This document shows, piece by piece, positions 1 through 28,638 of a DNA stretch of 55,601 nt. The position numbers and the translations under genes are program-made. Positions within the stretch are counted from its first letter, which is position 1; each line of letters starts with the position of its first letter. The stretch is from the IMG/VR virus record IMGVR_UViG_3300027752_000020, positions 1-55,601 of that record. One strand, 5' to 3'. Source of the stretch: a virus. The notes under the pieces are model-generated. The model had not been told where the DNA came from. It searched no databases and was given only the letters and a program-made list of their open reading frames with translations.

Positions 1-165
1 TTTCTTGTCGGTAAATAACTGCATGGCTTCTATAAGGTTGTTATCTTTTTGTCGTTGTTGCATAACAGAAAGTGCTAAATCATAATCGTTTTTACATTCA
101 TGCACGTCATCGGCATTAACAACTAACGACCCGAATACTGCTATAAGTGTTATTAGTACTTTCAT
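1..165 (-). CDS. Small secreted protein, partial (C-terminus beyond window)
   Basis: An open frame of 55 codons starts with ATG at 165 and runs off the left edge, so the C-terminus is missing. The first 18 residues (MKVLITLIAVFGSLVVNA) form a classical signal peptide with a likely signal peptidase I site after VNA, before an acidic stretch DDVHE. The start overlaps the stop of the upstream membrane-protein ORF in an ATGA arrangement, which implies translational coupling. The exported part seen so far has one Cys and no recognisable domain. I do not recognise the family. Export to the periplasm together with two small membrane-protein ORFs just upstream could fit a lysis, superinfection-exclusion or envelope function, but nothing in the sequence decides this. 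Confidence 0.6.
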   Translation of the reverse strand, partial: MKVLITLIAVFGSLVVNADDVHECKNDYDLALSVMQQRQKDNNLIEAMQLFTDKK

Positions 166-472: not shown

Positions 473-639
473 TATAATGCAGCTAGGTACATCACAAAGA
501 AAGGTAAAAAGAATGGAAGAGTCATCAGCACTAGAAATTCGATAGCATCACAAACTTTGCAGACAATTCGATTGTCTCTCAAGTCTTGGATTTCTCTAGC
601 TTTTCGTACCATGCTCTTTGCAAAAGTTGCTGTGGTCAT
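472..639 (-). CDS. Small membrane protein, 55 aa
   Basis: ATG at 639 is preceded by GGGAAAACC (a weak Shine-Dalgarno) and the frame closes with TAA at 472-474. The product starts MTTATFAKSMVRKAREIQ, a basic amphipathic part, and ends in one membrane-spanning stretch (FLVLMTLPFFLPFFVMYLAA). A pair of cysteines (CKVC) lies just before the membrane segment. It fills the gap between the 155-aa protein and the next membrane ORF and is coupled to the following frame by a TAATG overlap. No family is recognised. The size and single C-terminal membrane anchor would fit a holin-like, anti-holin or inner-membrane accessory protein, but this is only a possibility. Confidence 0.5.
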   Translation of the reverse strand: MTTATFAKSMVRKAREIQDLRDNRIVCKVCDAIEFLVLMTLPFFLPFFVMYLAAL

Positions 640-705
640 GGTTTTCCCGTAAGTAAAAGTATAAGTATGTTGTATAATTGGGTATAAGTCCGTGTTATAC
701 GCACT

Positions 706-19170: not shown

Positions 19171-19851
19171 CTATGACAGTATGGGGTCACCTTTCTCATC
19201 TAATTTGAATGTAAATTCATTTTCATCCCAAGGCATTGGTTTATTGTTATAGTCAAGCAAGTCCACATTGAAGGATATACTATATCGATTAGATGTTGAG
19301 AAGTTTGGTTCTACCATATGCATCGCACCACTAGGAAATAGTATACAGTTTCCTGTAGATGGTGCAACCCTGTGACTGGGATTACTACGTCTTCCATGAG
19401 GCATATTTCCTACTACCTTTGGCATTGGGTCTATAAACTGAATATCACCCTCATCCCCTCCTGCACTTATGTATAGAACACCACTAAACCAACATCCATT
19501 ATGAAGATGTGGCATATTCCATGCACCCTTATCGTTGATGTTTGCCCATGAGTTACCCATACGAATTTTTGAAGAAACACCAAAATATGTACACACTTCT
19601 TCATGGAAAAATGTTGAAATTCTATTCATACATTTCTGAAAAAGGGGGTTTCTATCAATCCCATCATTTGACTGCCAACCAGTATAGGCATTTGAGATTC
19701 TTCTACCTTCGGGGTCTTTCCTTCTCATTGCATCTATTTCATTCTTCAACTGGGTTGCATAACTCTCATCGTAACCTTGATTTGGATTCAAGTTGGAGTC
19801 AAGGAAGTTTCTCTCAAAAATAGGAGTAGGAAATAGTAATTTTACACTCAT
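19171..19851 (-). CDS. 2OG-Fe(II) oxygenase (HxH-type phage family)
   Basis: A 226-aa protein that starts KLLFPTPIFERNF and has MPHLHNGCWFSGVLYIS followed by EGDIQFIDP, which is the layout of the putative 2OG-Fe(II) oxygenase family often seen in marine phages. Candidate iron ligands are H115/H117 and the distal H178 (FPSGAMHMVEPN), and the 2OG arginine is R189 (NRYSISFNVDL). The substrate is unknown. It is the last enzyme of the accessory block; its ATG overlaps the preceding gene by 4 nt, so it is co-translated with the glycosyltransferase cluster. Confidence 0.85.
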   Translation of the reverse strand: MSVKLLFPTPIFERNFLDSNLNPNQGYDESYATQLKNEIDAMRRKDPEGRRISNAYTGWQSNDGIDRNPLFQKCMNRISTFFHEEVCTYFGVSSKIRMGNSWANINDKGAWNMPHLHNGCWFSGVLYISAGGDEGDIQFIDPMPKVVGNMPHGRRSNPSHRVAPSTGNCILFPSGAMHMVEPNFSTSNRYSISFNVDLLDYNNKPMPWDENEFTFKLDEKGDPILS

Positions 19852-20702
19852 TTAAAATCAAACTCCATCTGAACTTCATCATTTTTAGACCGAGGGTTAT
19901 CATGACCAAACGGACATCCACCCTTTGCATCTTTAAATAATTTTGGTTTTGGACTCCATGAGGTTTGCTTGTATTCTCCTAGTCCCGATTCAATCTTTTC
20001 ACGATTTGAGGAAAGTCCTTCAGGATGTACTAAACTGGACTGTTCTTCATAATGTTCCCATGATGTTTTTAGGTTGTATTCAGCCGTCCACTCATCTCTC
20101 TTAAATGGTATAACCTGCACTAATGGTGTCCCCTTCTTGATAACAAAATCATTACCATGTTTTGGATACATGATGATATTACTGTTTTCAGTAAGATGGT
20201 TGAAATGTTTGTCTGCATCTATAACACCATTCCATGCTTTAAAATCTTTATTCTGCCACAAGAATGGGTCTAGGTACATCATACTGTAACCTGTTGGTAG
20301 TTTTATAGACCATGAAGCTCTTACTTTAAATGCATCATAAATTTCGTCATTATTAGTATGATAATTAAACTGATAATCTTTCCCAGTTCCAAACTGTTCT
20401 TTAGGGTGAGATGGTATTGCAACCCCTTGTTCATTCTTGGCGACATCGAATATGGCTTTACATGTCCCCAAATCTTTATCGTGTACTACTTTTATGTCAT
20501 AATTTGATACTAACAACCAACCTATATTTAAGAAATCGTGCATTGCAGGACAAATCTTTAACGTCCCCTCAACAATGCTACCATTATTGATATCATTCGC
20601 CGGCAATGCCGCCCACCAATCAGGTTTATATTTTTTTGCAAGGATAGGTCTACACGAGACAAATCCATCTGAATTAGTTGTATTAAACTCTATCGTTGGC
20701 AT
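19848..20702 (-). CDS. Hypothetical protein, DUF6065-like
   Basis: A 284-aa soluble protein. It begins MPTIEFNTTNSDGFVSCRP and contains KICPAMHDFLNIGWLLVSNY, SWSIKLPTGYSMMYLDPFLW and a region KKGTPLVQVIPFKRDEW. This layout recalls the DUF6065 family found next to phage and bacterial oxygenase or glycosylation genes; I recall it rather than having computed it. A C-terminal PFGHDNPRSK may bind metal (one Cys nearby). It lies between two 2OG oxygenase genes with overlaps of 13 and 4 nt, suggesting that the three work on a common substrate or pathway. Confidence 0.6.
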   Translation of the reverse strand: MPTIEFNTTNSDGFVSCRPILAKKYKPDWWAALPANDINNGSIVEGTLKICPAMHDFLNIGWLLVSNYDIKVVHDKDLGTCKAIFDVAKNEQGVAIPSHPKEQFGTGKDYQFNYHTNNDEIYDAFKVRASWSIKLPTGYSMMYLDPFLWQNKDFKAWNGVIDADKHFNHLTENSNIIMYPKHGNDFVIKKGTPLVQVIPFKRDEWTAEYNLKTSWEHYEEQSSLVHPEGLSSNREKIESGLGEYKQTSWSPKPKLFKDAKGGCPFGHDNPRSKNDEVQMEFDFK

Positions 20703-21361
20703 AACTTCACTTCATCTCCTCGAATTACTATAGACCTTCTATCCATATATCTTGCATTAGAATTTGGTGCATCTGCACCGTGCGGTATTCTTCCATCAAA
20801 CATAATTAGTCTATTAGGCTTAAATGACACCTCCGCAATTTGAACTCCATTTTCTCTATTATCAAAACCTTGTATTGTTTCTATACCATCTTTAGGATTT
20901 TCATATAATCTCAGAACCCCACCCCAATGGTCTTCCCAATGTGTATTTGGGTAGTATAAAAAGGATAAATTTTGGTCTTCATCATCAGGACAATCATTAT
21001 GAATAGTTCCATAAAGTCCTTGTGTTTGAGAGTTTAATCCCATGTAATCCAATTTTTTCCAATTAAATCCAAAACCCTCTCTTAATCTCTCCTCTAGATA
21101 TTTACTCCATACAATTAAGTCGTGGCTATTTTCATTGTCCCAGTCATTATCCCTATTCATGGTAGAACCCCAAAACTGGTGCATTGGTAGACCAGTAGGG
21201 TCGTCTCCCCTAACTTCGTTAGTTTTTCTCCAATTGGCGGTCGTTACAACCCCATCTATCTTTCTGTGGATTATAGGAGCCAACCAGTTATCCAAAACAT
21301 ATATTTTATCTAAAGGTAGTGTCTCAATCTCGAAGGGGGAATCTATAAAACAGACTTCCAT
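20690..21361 (-). CDS. 2OG-Fe(II) oxygenase (prolyl 4-hydroxylase-like)
   Basis: A 223-aa protein with the clear P4H-type order: H121-N-D123 in LYGTIHNDCPDDED, the strand LSFLYYPNTHWEDHWGGVL with RLYENP, and the distal H194 in MFDGRIPHGADAP, then R208/R209 in DRRSIVIRG. This pattern (Y-T-x-H-x-D ... GGxLxLY ... RxxxFDxxxxH) is typical of enzymes that hydroxylate protein residues, although phage members may act on other molecules. It lies three genes downstream of the Pro/Tyr repeat protein and next to a glycosyltransferase. Confidence 0.9.
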   Translation of the reverse strand: MEVCFIDSPFEIETLPLDKIYVLDNWLAPIIHRKIDGVVTTANWRKTNEVRGDDPTGLPMHQFWGSTMNRDNDWDNENSHDLIVWSKYLEERLREGFGFNWKKLDYMGLNSQTQGLYGTIHNDCPDDEDQNLSFLYYPNTHWEDHWGGVLRLYENPKDGIETIQGFDNRENGVQIAEVSFKPNRLIMFDGRIPHGADAPNSNARYMDRRSIVIRGDEVKLCQR

Positions 21362-21366
21362 GAAAC

Positions 21367-21924
21367 CTATCCTTGTGAGTCTTTCAAGAAAGGAGTTGGG
21401 TAATATGGTGTATATTCTTCAAATGTTTTTAACATTTCTTCAGATGTAACTTCAATTTCTTTAATTAGTGTATCAGTGACCGCTGCGAAGGCATCCCCAC
21501 ATTCCATGACCAATCTTGCATCAGTTCTTTTGGGATGATTTGAACCATGTCTTCCTACCCAACTACATTCATTTATATCACGAAATCCATAGTCACTAGC
21601 AATCTCATTAAGTCTGTTATCTTGAAAATCATACAGTCTATCAATCAGTTGGTCATTAAGATTAACTCCTAGTGGTGGTTCGGACGCATCAATGTAAACT
21701 TCAACGGCCGACATTTGTTCATCAGTTAATGCAATTTGTTCATGTTCTTCAAAAAGTTTACTATCATCAAATTTTTCAATTCTCCAATGTTCGTCTCCGT
21801 CATATACGAGAATGTCAAAGTCAAATCCTAAACTAGGTTTATCAACATTGTTGAATTCATACCTCAATCCATTTGGTTTTGTAATTTTTAAATCGTTGTT
21901 TTCTGTAAATACTAGTGCGTTCAT
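21367..21924 (-). CDS. Hypothetical protein, possible tail-fibre assembly factor
   Basis: A 185-aa acidic protein. The N-terminal 60 residues look like a small beta domain (ITKPNGLRYEFNNVD; FDFDILVYDGDEHWRIEKFD). The C-terminal part is helical, with LIDRLYDFQDNRLNEIASDY, WVGRHGSNHPKRTDARLVM and ends in EEYTPYYPTPFLKD. The order of a helix with R/N, a short HG motif and a Pro-rich end is faintly similar to phage tail-fibre assembly chaperones, and it lies downstream of the fibre block. This is a weak suggestion; I do not recognise a family. It overlaps the glycosyltransferase gene by 4 nt. Confidence 0.5.
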   Translation of the reverse strand: MNALVFTENNDLKITKPNGLRYEFNNVDKPSLGFDFDILVYDGDEHWRIEKFDDSKLFEEHEQIALTDEQMSAVEVYIDASEPPLGVNLNDQLIDRLYDFQDNRLNEIASDYGFRDINECSWVGRHGSNHPKRTDARLVMECGDAFAAVTDTLIKEIEVTSEEMLKTFEEYTPYYPTPFLKDSQG

Positions 21925-23468
21925 AAGTTTATTTCCCCGTCTCTTTCAAGACAATTCTTTTCAATGGTGTATTGTTTTAAGTTTGATATATCAGAACAAT
22001 CTTGTCCTTTCACCCAAGGGCCTCCCCTTGTATAATGAAACCCAAAGGCATCGGGTTTAATATCATCATACCCCTCATTGTGTATATATTTAGTGGGTAT
22101 TTCAGATACCATATCTGTCCACTCAAACTGGTGTAGATACTTCCCACTTGCGGTATTGATAACTTCAGGTGTCAACTTCTTACAATCTTCATGACTGTTA
22201 TTGAACACCATCATACTCGACCACAATTTCTTAGGATAAGCAACATTCTTTTCACCATCGAACTTAGTTTCAGGTGTGTGTAGATTGTCATAATCGTACT
22301 TGCACACTGCAACAGCATCATCGGGGTGTAGGAACATAAACAGTGGTAGAGGACTTTTACTGAAAATCATATCATCATCAATAAACAATGAAATTCCCTT
22401 ATAGTCTTCCAAGTATGGTATTAAGAATCTACTGTATGTAAACTCAGTACTTTGACCTGCATATTCTCTAGTATACTCGGGAATTTTTGATTTGTCAAGG
22501 AATTTAATTTCAGGTTTGAAACACTCCAAATCACTCATCTTATGTTGTTTATTACCATTTAGATATCTTAATATACTATTTCTAGAAAGTTGTGGAAGTT
22601 GTTGATGTCTGCTATCATATCCAATATAAATGTTAAAGGGTTTTCCTTCAGTTAATTCAAACACACTCTTACCAAATTCTGTCACCCTTTTTCTCCAACT
22701 ATCTAATCTAGGTGTCAACTGGGTAGGCCATACTTGCACATATCCATTATGATAATCTAAACTAAGTTCAGTGGCTTGAAGTGATGAATCTGCAAAAATC
22801 TCCAAATGTTCTTTTACACTTAGTTCGGGACTTTCGATATAATTATAGGGGTCTGCTAACAAAATTGGTAGTGAATCATCGTCCAAAATTTTATACATTG
22901 ATTGTCTAATAGAGCCTGGATGTATATGAAGTCTATATCTTTGTGTATCAGACCTTCCATCAGAGTATGCATAGATACATCCTTGTACTGGATTTACTAG
23001 ACCATTTTCTTTAATATCATGAATCATCCAATGTGCTTTCGTGGAGTGGTAAAAGGTACTACCTACTGAATTCAACTCATCATCAGTGAGTCCTGTATCA
23101 CCCGCTTGATTATGAATACCACCTGTGTAACCACGGTAATTCATGTTGAGGTAGGTCTCAACCTCATATTCTAGACCCATTTCAAGGTCGATTAAGTCGT
23201 GTTTTTTTAATTCACCCCAAGTTAACATTTTAGTTGGTGGTACAAGATTTTGTTTACGAATTTCTTCATAAACTTTGACCTTTCTATTGTCTTCGGGAAT
23301 TTTGGAATCTGCATATAGATGTATCGTACCCAAGTCAATATTAACTTGTCCCAACTCTCTCAATGTACCGTCTACATCTCCATTAACACTCCAGTCTAAT
23401 TCAGGAATATTGTATTTTTTTACTATTGTGGGGGCATCTATAGGGGTTATTCTGCTTTTTAATCTCAT
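21921..23468 (-). CDS. Glycosyltransferase with ParB-like N-terminal region
   Basis: A 515-aa protein of two parts. Residues about 277-490 look like a GT-A-fold glycosyltransferase: FNIYIGYDSRHQQLP at the start, EFTYSRFLIPYLEDYKGISL, the metal/nucleotide-sugar motif FIDDDMIF (D364-D366) and a late GFHYTRGGPW. Residues about 135-200 contain IKENGLVNPVQG and YRLHIHPGSIRQSM, which resemble a ParB/sulfiredoxin-like domain. The first 100 residues are unassigned. The enzyme probably adds a sugar to a virion protein or another phage product. It is the first gene after the Pro/Tyr repeat gene, separated by a 13-bp inverted repeat, and begins a tightly overlapping operon with two 2OG oxygenases. Confidence 0.75.
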   Translation of the reverse strand: MRLKSRITPIDAPTIVKKYNIPELDWSVNGDVDGTLRELGQVNIDLGTIHLYADSKIPEDNRKVKVYEEIRKQNLVPPTKMLTWGELKKHDLIDLEMGLEYEVETYLNMNYRGYTGGIHNQAGDTGLTDDELNSVGSTFYHSTKAHWMIHDIKENGLVNPVQGCIYAYSDGRSDTQRYRLHIHPGSIRQSMYKILDDDSLPILLADPYNYIESPELSVKEHLEIFADSSLQATELSLDYHNGYVQVWPTQLTPRLDSWRKRVTEFGKSVFELTEGKPFNIYIGYDSRHQQLPQLSRNSILRYLNGNKQHKMSDLECFKPEIKFLDKSKIPEYTREYAGQSTEFTYSRFLIPYLEDYKGISLFIDDDMIFSKSPLPLFMFLHPDDAVAVCKYDYDNLHTPETKFDGEKNVAYPKKLWSSMMVFNNSHEDCKKLTPEVINTASGKYLHQFEWTDMVSEIPTKYIHNEGYDDIKPDAFGFHYTRGGPWVKGQDCSDISNLKQYTIEKNCLERDGEINL

Positions 23469-23530: not shown

Positions 23531-25579
23531 TTAACTAGAAATAGGTGACGCAGGCCAATTCTGTTGTAATACACCATCCCATCTTTGTACAGGAGTCCTT
23601 GCAATATAGATAGCAGGTTGTTGTGCAATATAGATAGCAGGTTGTTGTGCAATATAGATTGCAGGTTGTCTCGCATTCGCTTGATAGATTGCAGGTTGTC
23701 TAGCAATATAGATTGCAGGTTGTCTAGAAGGTGCTTGATAGATTGCAGGTTGTCTAGCAATATAGATTGCAGGTTGTCTAGCAGGTGCTTGGTATATACT
23801 AGGTTGTCTTGCAGTATAAATCGCAGGTTGTCTAGCAGGTGCTTGATATATAGCAGGTTGTCTTGCATCATATCCAGCTGGTTGTCTAGCAGGTGCTTGG
23901 TATATACTTGGTGACCTTGCAATATAGGCATGTGGAGACCTAGCATTCGCTTGATAGATAGCAGGTTGTCTCGCACTCGCTTGATAGATTGCAGGTTGTC
24001 TTGCTTGATACGTTGACGGATATGTAAACGGTATTTGAGCAATTGCAGGTTGTCTAGCAGTATAACTTGCACTGTAAGTAAACGGATTCTGTGCATTTGA
24101 AGGTTGTCTAGCATCATAATTTGCAATATATGGTGTTTGACCATTCACTGGTTGTCGAGCAGATGCTTGATAGGCTGCAGGATATGGTGTTTGACCATTT
24201 CTTGGTGAACGAGCAGGTGCTTGATAGGCTGCAGGATATGGTGTTTGACCATTTCTTGGTGAACGAGCAGGTGCAATATAACTTGCAGGATAAGTAAACG
24301 GTGTTTGACCATTCACTGGTTGTCTTGCTACAGTGTTCGCAGGGTAAGTAAACGGATTCTGTGCATTACTACTTGAGTATGCAGTATAGTTAGTAAACGC
24401 AAAGTAAGTAAACGGTTGTTGAGCATTCGTTTCAGTGTTACCATTCGCAATCACGGGAGCTCGAGTTGGATTCTGAAGTGGCATATATTCAGAAAACTTA
24501 CCTACTGAAATTAGAACCTGAGACTGACCTTGAGGATATAGCGGCGCATAGTAATTTTGTTGCCCATTGAACGTATATGGTATTCCTGAAGGAGTTCTAA
24601 ACGGAATCCTTCCATTTGCACTATAACCAGTTATCGCAGGATACGGTGTTTGTATCGTGTACGGTTGTCTAGAAGGTGCTTGATACGTTGTAGGATACGG
24701 TATCTGATAAGTGTATGGCTGTCTAGCAGATGCAATGTACGAAGCAGGATAAGTAAACGGTATCTGATAAGTGTATGGCTGTCTAGCAGTGTACGAAGCA
24801 GGATAAGTAAACGGTATCTGATAAGTGTATGGCTGTCTAGCAGTGTACGAAGCAGGATAAGTAAACGGTATCTGATAAGTAAATGGTTGTCTAGCAGGAT
24901 ACGTTCCAATGTATGGTGTTTGTATCGTGTACGGTTGTCTAGAAGGTGCAATATAAATTGCAGGATACGGTATCTGATAACTTACAGGTTGTCTAGCACT
25001 TAATCTCTGATTTGCAATATAAGGAGTCTGACTTGACGCAGGGTAAGTAAACGGTGTCTGACTCGATGTGGGATAAGTAAATGGTATCTGATATATCGCA
25101 GGATATGTACTTTGAGCATTCGCACTGTAAGTAAACGGTGTCTGATATCCAGCTGGATATGGTGTCTGTCTCGCCGCGGGGTAAGTAAACGGAGTTTGAC
25201 TTGACGCAGGGTAAGCTGTTTGAGCACTAGCTGGGTAAGTAAACGGAGTTTGACTTGACGCAGGATAAGTATTCTGTCTCGACGCAGGATAAGTAAACGG
25301 AGTCTGACTTGCCGCAGGGTAAGTAGTCTGTCTCGACGCAGGATAAGTAAACGGAGTCTGACTTGATGCAGGGTACGATGTCTGACTTGATGCAGGGTAC
25401 GATGTCTGACTATTTGCAGGGTATGGTTGTTGTGTGTTTCGTTGACCTGAGGCTGCAACCCACCCAGTCGGCGTTTTTATTTGTATATCAGATACAGATT
25501 TCCATGTACCTGATGCTGTTTTAACCCAAGCACCTTGGGTTGAATTCCAACCCGAAGGTGTTTTTACCTTTTGACTCAT
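23531..25579 (-). CDS. Pro/Tyr/Gln-rich repeat protein (fibre or adhesin)
   Basis: A 682-aa low-complexity protein. Residues 1-45 form a Trp-containing head with three similar strands (KTPSGWNSTQGAWV, KTASGTWKSV, IKTPTGWVAASG). Residues about 51-320 are repeats of QTPFTYPAS and ARQPYTYQIP type; 320-385 is a non-repeat linker; 385-661 is mainly ARQPAIYQAP-type repeats that become near-perfect towards the end; the last 20 residues contain RWDGVLQQNWPAS. By eye there are 16 PFTY and 11 QPAIY copies. No Cys is present and charged residues are mostly Arg. Composition recalls Tyr/Pro-rich adhesive or elastic proteins. It closes the fibre gene block, so a virion surface role is likely. Its first 45 residues may attach it to the tail. 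Confidence 0.85.
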   Translation of the reverse strand: MSQKVKTPSGWNSTQGAWVKTASGTWKSVSDIQIKTPTGWVAASGQRNTQQPYPANSQTSYPASSQTSYPASSQTPFTYPASRQTTYPAASQTPFTYPASRQNTYPASSQTPFTYPASAQTAYPASSQTPFTYPAARQTPYPAGYQTPFTYSANAQSTYPAIYQIPFTYPTSSQTPFTYPASSQTPYIANQRLSARQPVSYQIPYPAIYIAPSRQPYTIQTPYIGTYPARQPFTYQIPFTYPASYTARQPYTYQIPFTYPASYTARQPYTYQIPFTYPASYIASARQPYTYQIPYPTTYQAPSRQPYTIQTPYPAITGYSANGRIPFRTPSGIPYTFNGQQNYYAPLYPQGQSQVLISVGKFSEYMPLQNPTRAPVIANGNTETNAQQPFTYFAFTNYTAYSSSNAQNPFTYPANTVARQPVNGQTPFTYPASYIAPARSPRNGQTPYPAAYQAPARSPRNGQTPYPAAYQASARQPVNGQTPYIANYDARQPSNAQNPFTYSASYTARQPAIAQIPFTYPSTYQARQPAIYQASARQPAIYQANARSPHAYIARSPSIYQAPARQPAGYDARQPAIYQAPARQPAIYTARQPSIYQAPARQPAIYIARQPAIYQAPSRQPAIYIARQPAIYQANARQPAIYIAQQPAIYIAQQPAIYIARTPVQRWDGVLQQNWPASPISS
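23597..24427 (-). repeat. ARQPAIY-type repeat block (C-terminal half of repeat protein)
   Basis: Degenerate repeats with units of mainly 7-10 codons. At 23601-23672 three consecutive 24-bp units (coding AQQPAIYI/ARQPAIYI) occur, the first two identical, which indicates recent expansion or conversion. Variation in the spacer residues (QAP, QAN, QAS, IAR, TAR, DAR) marks the older units. Confidence 0.85.
24620..25429 (-). repeat. QTPFTYPAS-type repeat block (N-terminal half of repeat protein)
   Basis: Repeats of 8-18 codons built from QTPFTYPAS, RQTxYPAS and ARQPYTYQIP elements. Units at 24700-24900 (coding ARQPYTYQIPFTYPASYT) are nearly identical at DNA level. The coding frame is preserved throughout, while alternative frames also stay open because the codons repeat. 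Confidence 0.85.
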
Positions 25580-25620: not shown

Positions 25621-28600
25621 TTAAGAATATTGTACCCATAAATCACCCACTATACCAGCACCTGCTGTTGGGGCTGATGTTGATTGGTAAACATTCCTAG
25701 CAACACCACCACTATTGGATGCGTTAGTAGTACTCAATGTTGTAAACGACGCACTTGCACCTGTAACTGCAAAATTTGAGTTATTTGTCAAGTGTGAAGT
25801 ATGTGTTGCAGAAGTTATTGCACCAGTTGTACTATTGTATGCACCTGCACCAGCAACATGTGAATGTGCAGCTCTTGCTCTTACATCAGTGTAGTATAGA
25901 TTACTGTTTTCAGTAATGGCACTAGTGTTTAGTGTAATATCTGCAGAACCATTGAATGATACACCTGATATATTTCTTGCAGTTTGCAATGTTGTAGCAG
26001 TTGCAGCGTTTCCTGTTGTTGACTGGTTAAGTGTACCGACTGAAAAGTCTACTGTACTGTCACCATCATTATATGTAACTGTAATACCTGATTCAGTATT
26101 ACCTGTAAACATACCACCGACTGCATCTTGAGCTCTTTCGTTTGTAAAGTACAGGTTTGACCCTTCAGATACATTACTAGTAGAATGATTAGATAAACTA
26201 GAAACTGTACCAGTTACGTTTCCTGTTAAGTTTCCTTCAACATTGGCAACTAAAGTTCCTGTAGTGATTGATAGGTTACCTGTGGTTGCACCAGTAAATG
26301 TACCAGTACCCATTGTAAACTTATCTGCACTCTCATCAAAACCGATGAATGCGTTTGCAGAATCACCCCTTTCTATAACGATACCAGTATCGTTAGCAGG
26401 TGTTCCTGTAGTTCCGTATCCAAGTTCGATTAAACCATCTGTCATGGTTGTGTTAGTTGAACTAACTGTAGTAGTAGTACCATTAACAACTAGGTCTCCA
26501 GCAAGTGTCAAGTCGTTGAATGCAACATCACTCGAAGTTGCAACTGCTTGACCAATACTGAAAGCACCACCACTGTATGTTACACCAGTTCCAGCACTTA
26601 AGTGAGCTCTTGTTTCCGATGCACTTCCACCAGTGTATGTTATTACACCAGTTGTACTATTGTATGCAAGTGAACCATCTCCACCAGCATCAGAAACATC
26701 AACTAAACCTCTTACTTGTGCATCTGTTCTTTCTGTGAACGAGATTACACCAGTTGAACTGTTGTATGCTAAATCACCACCAGCAGATACTAGACCTCTG
26801 ATTGCAGCGTCTGATTTACCATCAAGTGTAAGTGTTCCAGCAGCATCAACATAAGTTGCAGTGATATTTACACCACCAACTACTAGATTGTCTACGATGT
26901 CTTCGATTTCTTCTTGAGTTTTACCCGAAGAGTTAATTGTAAGTGTACCAGCAGTGTCATTGTATGCAAGTGTTATGTTTGTTCCAGCAGTCGCCATTGC
27001 ACCAACAACATCTTGAACTCTTTCTGTTGTATGATAAAGATTTGACGAACCTTCTGAAGTTGCATCTGTATTAAATGACCCAGTTGCACCCAATGCTATT
27101 GTTGCACCGTTAACTGTTAGACCCGAATTAGTAAGTTTACTGTTTGAAATATTACCAGCTAACATACCATCTGTAATACCTAATGCTTTAACTCTTAGTG
27201 CATCTGAATTCAATTCTACAGAAGAATTATCTACTCCGACTGTAAGTGTAACATCACCAGTAGTTCCCCCACCTGTTAGACCATCTCCAGCAACTACCGA
27301 AGTGATATCTCCAACTTCTGAAGTAAGTGTTAGTGTTCCAGCAGTGTCATCGTATGTAGATGTGATTCCTGTTCCACCAACGATTAATGAACTGACTCTG
27401 TCGTCAACTCTCTCGTTTGTGAAATATAAATTTCCAGTACCTTCAGATACGTCATCCGTATCACCCGAAAGTTCTGATAATGCATCTTTTGATTGAACTT
27501 GTGAGTCAACATATGCTTTAATAGATTCTGAAGATGAAAGTGTTGTTGCACTTGCACCCGACATAGTGTCTGAGTCTAGTATTGCAGAACCACTTACACC
27601 AGTGTTTATTACTGGACTTGTGATTGTTTTATTTGTTAAACCCTGTGTACCTGTTAATGTTGCAACCAAAGTTGTATCAATCTCGATTGTATCTGCATTA
27701 ACTGTAATACCTGAACCAGCACCAATGTTTAATGTTGCATCACCACTAGTTGCACCACCAGTTAAACCCGAACCAGCAACTACTGAAGAAATATCTCCAG
27801 CATCGTTTGTGAAACTTATTACACCAGTTGTACTATTGTATGCTAAATCTCCACCAGCACTAATTGCACCTCTTGCTCTTGCAGTGGTGTGATAAAGGTT
27901 AGTTGAACCTTCAGTTAAGCTGTCTGTATCAGTAGCGATATCTACATATGATGAACCATCATTAGTAAATTGCCATTTGTCTGTACTTTCTTTAAATTGT
28001 ATTTTAACATTAGTAGATGTTCCTCTTTCAACTTCAACACCTGCATCCTGTGATGGAGTACCTGCTTCGTTGTTGTTTAGGACAATCATGTTGTCATCGA
28101 CTGTTAATGTTTCTGTATTGATTGTTGTTTGTGTGCCGTTAACTGTCAAATTACCACTTAGGATAAGATTATCACTAAATGTTTTAACACCTGCAATACT
28201 TTGTGTACCAGTAGTTCTAACCAAATCTGATGCAGCTGTGACTCTTGCATCTGCTCTTGCATCTGTATAATAGAGATTACTCGAACCTTCAGATACGTCA
28301 TCTGTGTCACCACTTAGTTCACTTAAGTCATCTTTAGCTGCACTTACGGAATCAACGTATGCTTTAATAGATTCTGAAGATGAAAGTGTTGTTGCACTTG
28401 CACCCGACATAGTGTCTGAGTCTAGTATTGCAACATCAATAACAATAGTATCTGCACCATCGTTATACGTTGCAGTTGCACCACCAGTTGCACTAACAAT
28501 ACCACCAATCTTATCTGCGATTGCTTCGTTTACTGCAACTCCAATCCCACCAGCGACTAAGTCACCCGATGAGTTAATTACTTCTACACCACCAACGGAT

Positions 28601-28638
28601 AAACCATTTTTGATATTAAAATTCTTTTCACCAGCCAT
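25621..28638 (-). CDS. Large tail-fibre-like structural protein, 1005 aa
   Basis: A Gly/Thr/Ser/Asn/Val-rich, Cys-free fibre protein. It starts MAGEKNFNIKNGLSVGGVEV, an N-terminal anchor shared with the 72-aa gene upstream. It contains repeated LSEGSSNLYYTDARADARV-type motifs, repeated SSVVAGSGLTGG-type turns and two copies of a module beginning NLTVNGTQTT/NLVVNGTTTT followed by DNMIVLNNNEAGTP or DGLIELGYGTTGTP and an ERG...IGF/IQF segment. The C-terminus is YQSTSAPTAGAGIVGDLWVQ, common at the ends of such fibres. Likely a trimeric fibre or whisker attached to the tail or collar. Overlaps the 72-aa gene by one base. Confidence 0.8.
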   Translation of the reverse strand: MAGEKNFNIKNGLSVGGVEVINSSGDLVAGGIGVAVNEAIADKIGGIVSATGGATATYNDGADTIVIDVAILDSDTMSGASATTLSSSESIKAYVDSVSAAKDDLSELSGDTDDVSEGSSNLYYTDARADARVTAASDLVRTTGTQSIAGVKTFSDNLILSGNLTVNGTQTTINTETLTVDDNMIVLNNNEAGTPSQDAGVEVERGTSTNVKIQFKESTDKWQFTNDGSSYVDIATDTDSLTEGSTNLYHTTARARGAISAGGDLAYNSTTGVISFTNDAGDISSVVAGSGLTGGATSGDATLNIGAGSGITVNADTIEIDTTLVATLTGTQGLTNKTITSPVINTGVSGSAILDSDTMSGASATTLSSSESIKAYVDSQVQSKDALSELSGDTDDVSEGTGNLYFTNERVDDRVSSLIVGGTGITSTYDDTAGTLTLTSEVGDITSVVAGDGLTGGGTTGDVTLTVGVDNSSVELNSDALRVKALGITDGMLAGNISNSKLTNSGLTVNGATIALGATGSFNTDATSEGSSNLYHTTERVQDVVGAMATAGTNITLAYNDTAGTLTINSSGKTQEEIEDIVDNLVVGGVNITATYVDAAGTLTLDGKSDAAIRGLVSAGGDLAYNSSTGVISFTERTDAQVRGLVDVSDAGGDGSLAYNSTTGVITYTGGSASETRAHLSAGTGVTYSGGAFSIGQAVATSSDVAFNDLTLAGDLVVNGTTTTVSSTNTTMTDGLIELGYGTTGTPANDTGIVIERGDSANAFIGFDESADKFTMGTGTFTGATTGNLSITTGTLVANVEGNLTGNVTGTVSSLSNHSTSNVSEGSNLYFTNERAQDAVGGMFTGNTESGITVTYNDGDSTVDFSVGTLNQSTTGNAATATTLQTARNISGVSFNGSADITLNTSAITENSNLYYTDVRARAAHSHVAGAGAYNSTTGAITSATHTSHLTNNSNFAVTGASASFTTLSTTNASNSGGVARNVYQSTSAPTAGAGIVGDLWVQYS

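Follow-up and report, generated by a model that had tools for sequence, protein, structure and literature searches.

Two repeat arms of a putative tail-fibre protein from a T4-like phage appear to match antiparallel in residue register

The window analysed here, a stretch of 55,601 nucleotides from the genome of a T4-like marine phage, contains an open reading frame (23531–25579, minus strand, open from ATG to stop) for a 682-residue protein in which two arms of short Pro/Tyr repeats flank a linker of about 65 residues. The locus raises the question of how two arms made of different repeats are related to each other, and what such a protein may build. The parts of the gene are listed in the order in which they are translated.

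25439..25579, minus strand: N-terminal (NT) domain, residues 1–47, comprising three small hairpin units that are rich in Trp (KTPSGW, VKTASGTW and IKTPTGW)
24614..25426, minus strand: arm 1, putatively outgoing, residues 52–322, in which residue n is set opposite residue 713−n of arm 2
25349..25423, minus strand: opposed 24-bp copies at the 5′ end of the gene, residues 53–77
24416..24613, minus strand: non-repeat tip or linker, residues 323–388 (66 residues), with the turn centre at 356/357
23591..24415, minus strand: arm 2, putatively returning, residues 389–663, antiparallel with arm 1; its equivalent is a separate CAP gene in relatives
23601..23672, minus strand: 24-bp copies at the 3′ end of the gene, residues 636–660, two perfect and one diverged
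23534..23590, minus strand: CAP motif, residues 664–682, VQRWDGVLQQNWPASPISS, the conserved C-terminus that defines the CAP-gene relatives

A preliminary description of this gene had reported QTPFTYPAS-type repeats in an N-terminal block and ARQPAIYQAP-type repeats in a C-terminal block, divided by a 65-residue non-repeat linker; the same two classes and the linker (about residues 323–388) were recovered here. The NT domain, which is conserved in every NT-gene relative, where it comes first, and is presumed to be the base or attachment end, was predicted by AlphaFold2 to contain strands at residues 4–7, 10–13, 18–20, 26–28, 33–36 and 39–42, with a local pLDDT of ~80 for residues 20–40, and was without a match among 50,697 phage records. 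The C-terminal motif of the window protein is RWDGVLQQNWPASPISS, and the R, WDG, Q and WP of the CAP motif are near-invariant in alignment A3. Searches of Pfam, PHROG and PDB sequences returned no family match for the repeat arms, and matches of the protein to Cementoin and Cornifin were set aside as apparently compositional.

Positions 23601–23672 carry ACAACAACCTGCTATCTATATTGC in two perfect 24-bp copies, together with a third with four differences. These copies had been noted before, and the preliminary description read them as a sign that replication slippage or conversion is under way near the 3′ end. Comparison with relatives speaks against that interpretation: the 8-residue units are equal in number in three relatives of ~80% identity (L001–L003) and in L047, which has an identical C-terminus and comes from another metagenome, and there is therefore no sign of current expansion there. 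Furthermore, positions 25349–25423 carry ATCGTACCCTGCATCAAGTCAGAC twice and one diverged 24-bp copy (Tandem Repeats Finder: 25356–25423, period 24), and because 713 minus 636..660 equals 53..77, the two sets of copies exactly face each other from opposite ends of the gene. This 5′ set had escaped the preliminary description, as had the mirror matching of the arms and the proline/aromatic parity that are reported below.

Scans of IMG/VR found 91 and 370 relatives, of which 80 were kept from each, and the GTDB genomes yielded one matching contig, from a MAG; 66 complete NT/CAP pairs were examined. No family member is known in cultured phages. Matches to Pseudomonas and Mycobacterium phages were weak, as was one to Arthrobacter phage Atuin, which lies inside a very large minor tail protein, and a match in Vibrio phage F23s1 to a perfect short tandem repeat was judged compositional. 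In nearly all complete loci, the arms are split over two adjacent genes: NT, comprising the W-rich N-domain, an arm and a variable tip, and CAP, comprising an arm and the WDG..QQWPA end. One group of relatives (L052–L060 and L062–L064) has the reverse order, with the CAP gene before the NT gene, and the fused form is restricted to the window and L001–L003, where the linker occupies the place of the tip. NT-gene tips consist of Gly-rich tails, Hint domains or unannotated domains of ~140 residues, and identity between the window protein and L001 is 98% in the N-domain, 82–83% in the arms and 44% in the tip. Exchangeable tips and the splitting or fusion of the gene are thus apparent from comparison of these loci.

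The lengths of the NT and CAP arms are closely correlated (Pearson r = 0.984 for 22 representative pairs of 187–545 residues) and exactly equal in L034, L036, L038 and L042. With cognate arms aligned antiparallel, starting at the base, opposed residues shared 0.99 bit of mutual information at one register, compared with 0.294 ± 0.014 bit for arms taken from different loci (z = 50); in the parallel layout it was 0.28 bit, which equals the control level. The signal is high within each of the two parity classes of positions (0.84 vs 0.06 and 0.95 vs 0.08), and both faces are therefore matched. Aromatic residues are opposed to Ala or Gly, and Pro to Arg or Gln. An aromatic faces another aromatic in 4 of 1217 cases at the register, compared with 12–52% at even shifts of up to 10. 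The commonest opposed words are PYIANA/FTYQNR, PYPYIA/YARQGQ, PFTYNA/YIANAR and PANAQS/NPFTYR. As the loci are related, p-values that treat them as independent come out too small. On these sequence statistics, the arms almost certainly match antiparallel in residue register, and direct cross-strand beta pairing is likely.

The register is accompanied by a strict two-residue parity. Spacings between prolines are even in 557 cases and odd in none in the CAP arms of 14 clusters, and even in 902 and odd in 56 in the NT genes with their tips included. Within the window, all prolines of each arm (49/49 in arm 1 and 41/41 in arm 2) lie at one parity within their own arm, and the aromatics (Y+F) lie at the opposite one (54/54 and 35/38, respectively); relative to Pro, one class of positions holds P, Q, R, N, T and I, and the other Y, A, F, S and N. 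Indels between relatives are even-sized in 1794 cases vs 58 odd, counted over events that are not independent, and the even spacing survives changes of 2, 6, 8 and 10 residues. A two-residue rule maintained over hundreds of residues is expected of extended beta strands and argues against three-residue helices, and the arms would accordingly be in beta conformation, with prolines presumably confined to positions whose backbone NH is directed away from the partner. The preliminary description had proposed a beta-spiral or polyproline-like rod. An extended repeat rod encoded within a tail-fibre gene cluster is retained here, whereas the polyproline or beta-spiral form fits badly with spacings in multiples of two and with a residue-by-residue code across the arms. 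Elastin and gluten beta-spirals, polyproline rods and collagen share Pro-rich tandem repeats with the window family, but their periodicity is turn-based or of three residues, whereas that of the family is strictly even.

A pair table was learnt from 20 split loci, with the fused proteins excluded, and applied to the window protein. The best hairpin centre was i+j = 711 (0-based), at residue 356/357, with a score of 237.6; the runner-up, at an 18-residue shift, scored 85.7, and the mean score was −203. The register of the split loci predicts 51+662−2 = 711, which is the centre found. At this centre, none of 53 arm-1 aromatics has an aromatic opposite, 47 of the 53 have Ala or Gly, and prolines are never opposite one another. 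Six held-out families from the second scan, with <60% of their 5-mers in common with any earlier pair, all picked the same register (6/6, 1.31–1.52 bits per residue, with ≤0.04 for the parallel layout). Leave-one-out analysis of 28 loci gave a register of +2 for 22 of them; the remaining six, whose anchoring Pro is apparently located elsewhere, gave +4 or −2, and the parallel layout was always negative. Many loci carry, ~6 kb upstream, a third repeat gene that probably encodes a second fibre; it has the ending KVKGVYVN..VEKIHQ and was not found in the window. It scores as a hairpin alone in L014 (107–1582), L018 (129–1595) and L068 (684–2150), and in L038 (2–1625), where it is split into two genes, the pairing score is 128.9 vs 22.

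Insertions and deletions often follow the same register. When related loci were compared in disjoint pairs, an opposed CAP indel, defined as one of the same size at ≤30 residues from the opposite position, accompanied 17 of the 31 NT-arm indels, compared with 2/31 for a parallel mapping; the other 14 were without an opposed match by this criterion. Opposed indels include −10 at 82/87 and −8 at 220/225 in L004/L007, +16 at 230 in L008/L024, and +44 and −8 in L012/L023. The window and L001 differ by two 18-residue indels per arm, and a +2/−2 change at about residues 284/295 faces a +2/−2 change near 428/415. The length variation anticipated by the preliminary description is present between relatives, except that fixed changes tend toward opposed pairs of equal size. 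Conversely, five pairs of loci (L008/L016, L012/L020, L026/L030, L030/L035 and L052/L053) are approximately identical except in one arm, where the difference amounts to 20, 44 or 88 residues, so that either strict arm equality can be broken or the assemblies are wrong. These differences could reflect slippage or assembly collapse, the latter because short-read assemblies collapse perfect repeats; if real, they would mean that bulges are tolerated or that the variants are transient.

Such one-arm differences in copy number, along with tandem repeats of 24, 30 and 54 bp in the DNA, would also suit a low-complexity, slippage-prone and disordered protein whose arms resemble each other through shared ancestry and composition. 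We regard this explanation as extremely improbable, since the signal vanishes in the non-cognate and parallel controls, the opposed indels exceed those of the parallel mapping, the arm lengths do not vary independently, and direct duplication cannot give mirror order. A DNA inverted repeat was considered as the origin of the mirror order and rejected, as the best match was only 58% over 130 bp. Register, direction, parity rule and compensating indels can all be read from the sequences; physical contact between the arms is likely.

Structure prediction, which the preliminary description had suggested, was performed with AlphaFold2 on the fused single chain. Runs with 4 and with 40 sequences left the arms without confident structure (mean pLDDT of 31 and 40, respectively), and beta conformation, bundling and location in the virion are therefore put forward as inferences. 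Part of arm 2 was weakly modelled as a solenoid: short strands with a period of ~18 residues were predicted for residues 531–660 (pLDDT of about 40–61) and 585–645, and weak strands reached about 50–65. Together with repeat units that sum to 18 and 20 residues, they would fit arms that each form a beta-solenoid of their own, with a coil of 18–20 residues, lying side by side and matched only in length and order of units. That arrangement is unlikely: side-by-side solenoids would not be expected to show residue complementarity on the two faces at one and the same register, even spacing is maintained through changes of 2, 6, 8 and 10 residues, and the deeper alignment brought no gain in confidence. 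Co-variation by itself is no proof of contact, and extended arms, either beta or polyproline-like, might instead be aligned axially by a third protein and co-vary without touching. This is less likely still, as the pair table describes direct size complementarity, in which aromatics face Ala or Gly and aromatic–aromatic opposition is nearly forbidden, no third arm of equal length was found, and the other repeat gene has an internal hairpin register of its own.

The genomic surroundings point to a structural role. The genome is T4-like, with a major capsid protein 67% identical to that of Methylophilales phage Melnitz and 64% identical to those of pelagiphages Mosig and HTVC008M. Baseplate wedge, sheath, terminase and neck genes surround the repeat gene, which is found in a fibre cluster, between baseplate wedge and neck genes and beside fibre genes, a setting that resembles the pelagimyophage cluster for host recognition (PMC7029224). 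Its neighbours are the following.

25621..28638, minus strand: tail-fibre or structural protein (PHROG 697, E 2e-44), with a homologue in 72 of the 80 loci kept
21921..23468, minus strand: GT8-like glycosyltransferase adjoining the repeat gene (Pfam Glyco_transf_8, E 5e-5, just under the cutoff), in 77 of the 80 loci kept
20690..21361, minus strand: 2OG-Fe(II) oxygenase (PF13640, E 2e-8), with a homologue in 75 of the 80 loci kept
19171..19851, minus strand: second 2OG-Fe(II) oxygenase (PF13759, E 7e-19), with a homologue in 75 of the 80 loci kept

The oxygenase at 20690..21361 is a possible prolyl hydroxylase, and the glycosyltransferase and two oxygenases (19171–23468) could hydroxylate or glycosylate the repeats; the neck genes are nearly as syntenic, so that their synteny (75–77 of 80 loci) shows no specific link to the repeat gene. 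From its position, the repeat protein is likely to be a virion fibre.

Taking these results together, we consider it likely that the chain forms a single giant antiparallel beta hairpin or zipper, built by NT and CAP chains in most relatives. Starting at the Trp-rich base domain, arm 1 would run outward, the linker would form the distal tip, and arm 2 would return to leave the CAP motif near the base, such that each residue n of arm 1 would lie opposite residue 713−n, with aromatic and Ala/Gly residues on one face and Pro and Arg/Gln on the other. In most relatives, NT and CAP chains from adjacent genes would zip into the same shaft, with the C-terminus of the NT chain providing an exchangeable tip. 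Two or more ribbons would probably bundle; a trimer of six strands is a guess, and a trimeric bundle is somewhat doubtful. At 3.3 Å per residue, about 271 residues would give a shaft of ~90 nm, which would display the tip for host binding, with receptor binding presumably at the tip.

The T4 gp37 needle, a homotrimer with six strands, follows an out-and-back chain path. Its tip is an antiparallel beta-strand needle with the receptor-binding part at the end (PMC7291167). By analogy, the repeat protein is most likely a tail-fibre shaft that would work like this needle, as the chain appears to run out and then back antiparallel, here as judged by register and with an empty parallel control. The two differ in that the gp37 needle is short, consists of one polypeptide and has a His/iron core, whereas the arms of the window family span 160–545 residues, usually belong to two polypeptides, and present an aromatic/Ala face and an explicit pairing rule. 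The gp37-type collar domain and HxH metal motifs are absent from the window protein, and Pfam, PHROG and PDB searches found no sequence relation to gp37; by sequence, the repeat protein is not a member of the gp37 needle family. Heterodimeric coiled coils resemble the NT/CAP pair in that a regular residue code governs recognition between two chains, but they are based on helical heptads, whereas the code of NT and CAP is antiparallel and strand-like, has a parity of two residues and is accompanied by compensating indels. Synechococcus phage S-SCSM1 gp245, a ‘short tail fiber protein’ (L083, 3560–4825), shares the parity, with 29 of 31 P–P spacings even; it has an Arg/Pro-rich stretch between HTHN and SHNH motifs, and several 2OG-Fe(II) oxygenases adjoin it. 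The pair table gave no hairpin register for gp245, which was therefore not accepted as a cultured member and is only a lead.

Openly licensed PMC papers yielded no description of such a pairing rule between protein chains. We think it probable that two separately encoded proteins pair antiparallel by a residue code over up to ~500 residues, in a nucleic-acid-like manner, with shaft length and partner specificity written in the sequence and kept by compensating indels, and that the same principle operates in the second fibre encoded by the third gene. If so, a simple rule by which long strands settle on a single partner and register would be a new means for sequence to specify how proteins assemble. 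It could serve as a template in the design of programmable beta zippers, and it would explain long fibres with exchangeable tips in widespread, uncultured marine T4-like phages. The register of any family member would be predictable from sequence ahead of a structure.

Two further observations concern individual relatives. L166, a Sphingobacteriales MAG contig on which the third gene is present alongside the NT/CAP pair, is probably a binned phage contig. Hint-domain tips (intein/hedgehog-like) are found in L034 (7989–9254), L036 (7989–9596), L059 (3296–4513) and L049 (1022–2239), with a Cys at the start and VHN/AHN-like motifs at the end (by eye only in L034), and self-processing of the fibre tip is possible in these cases.
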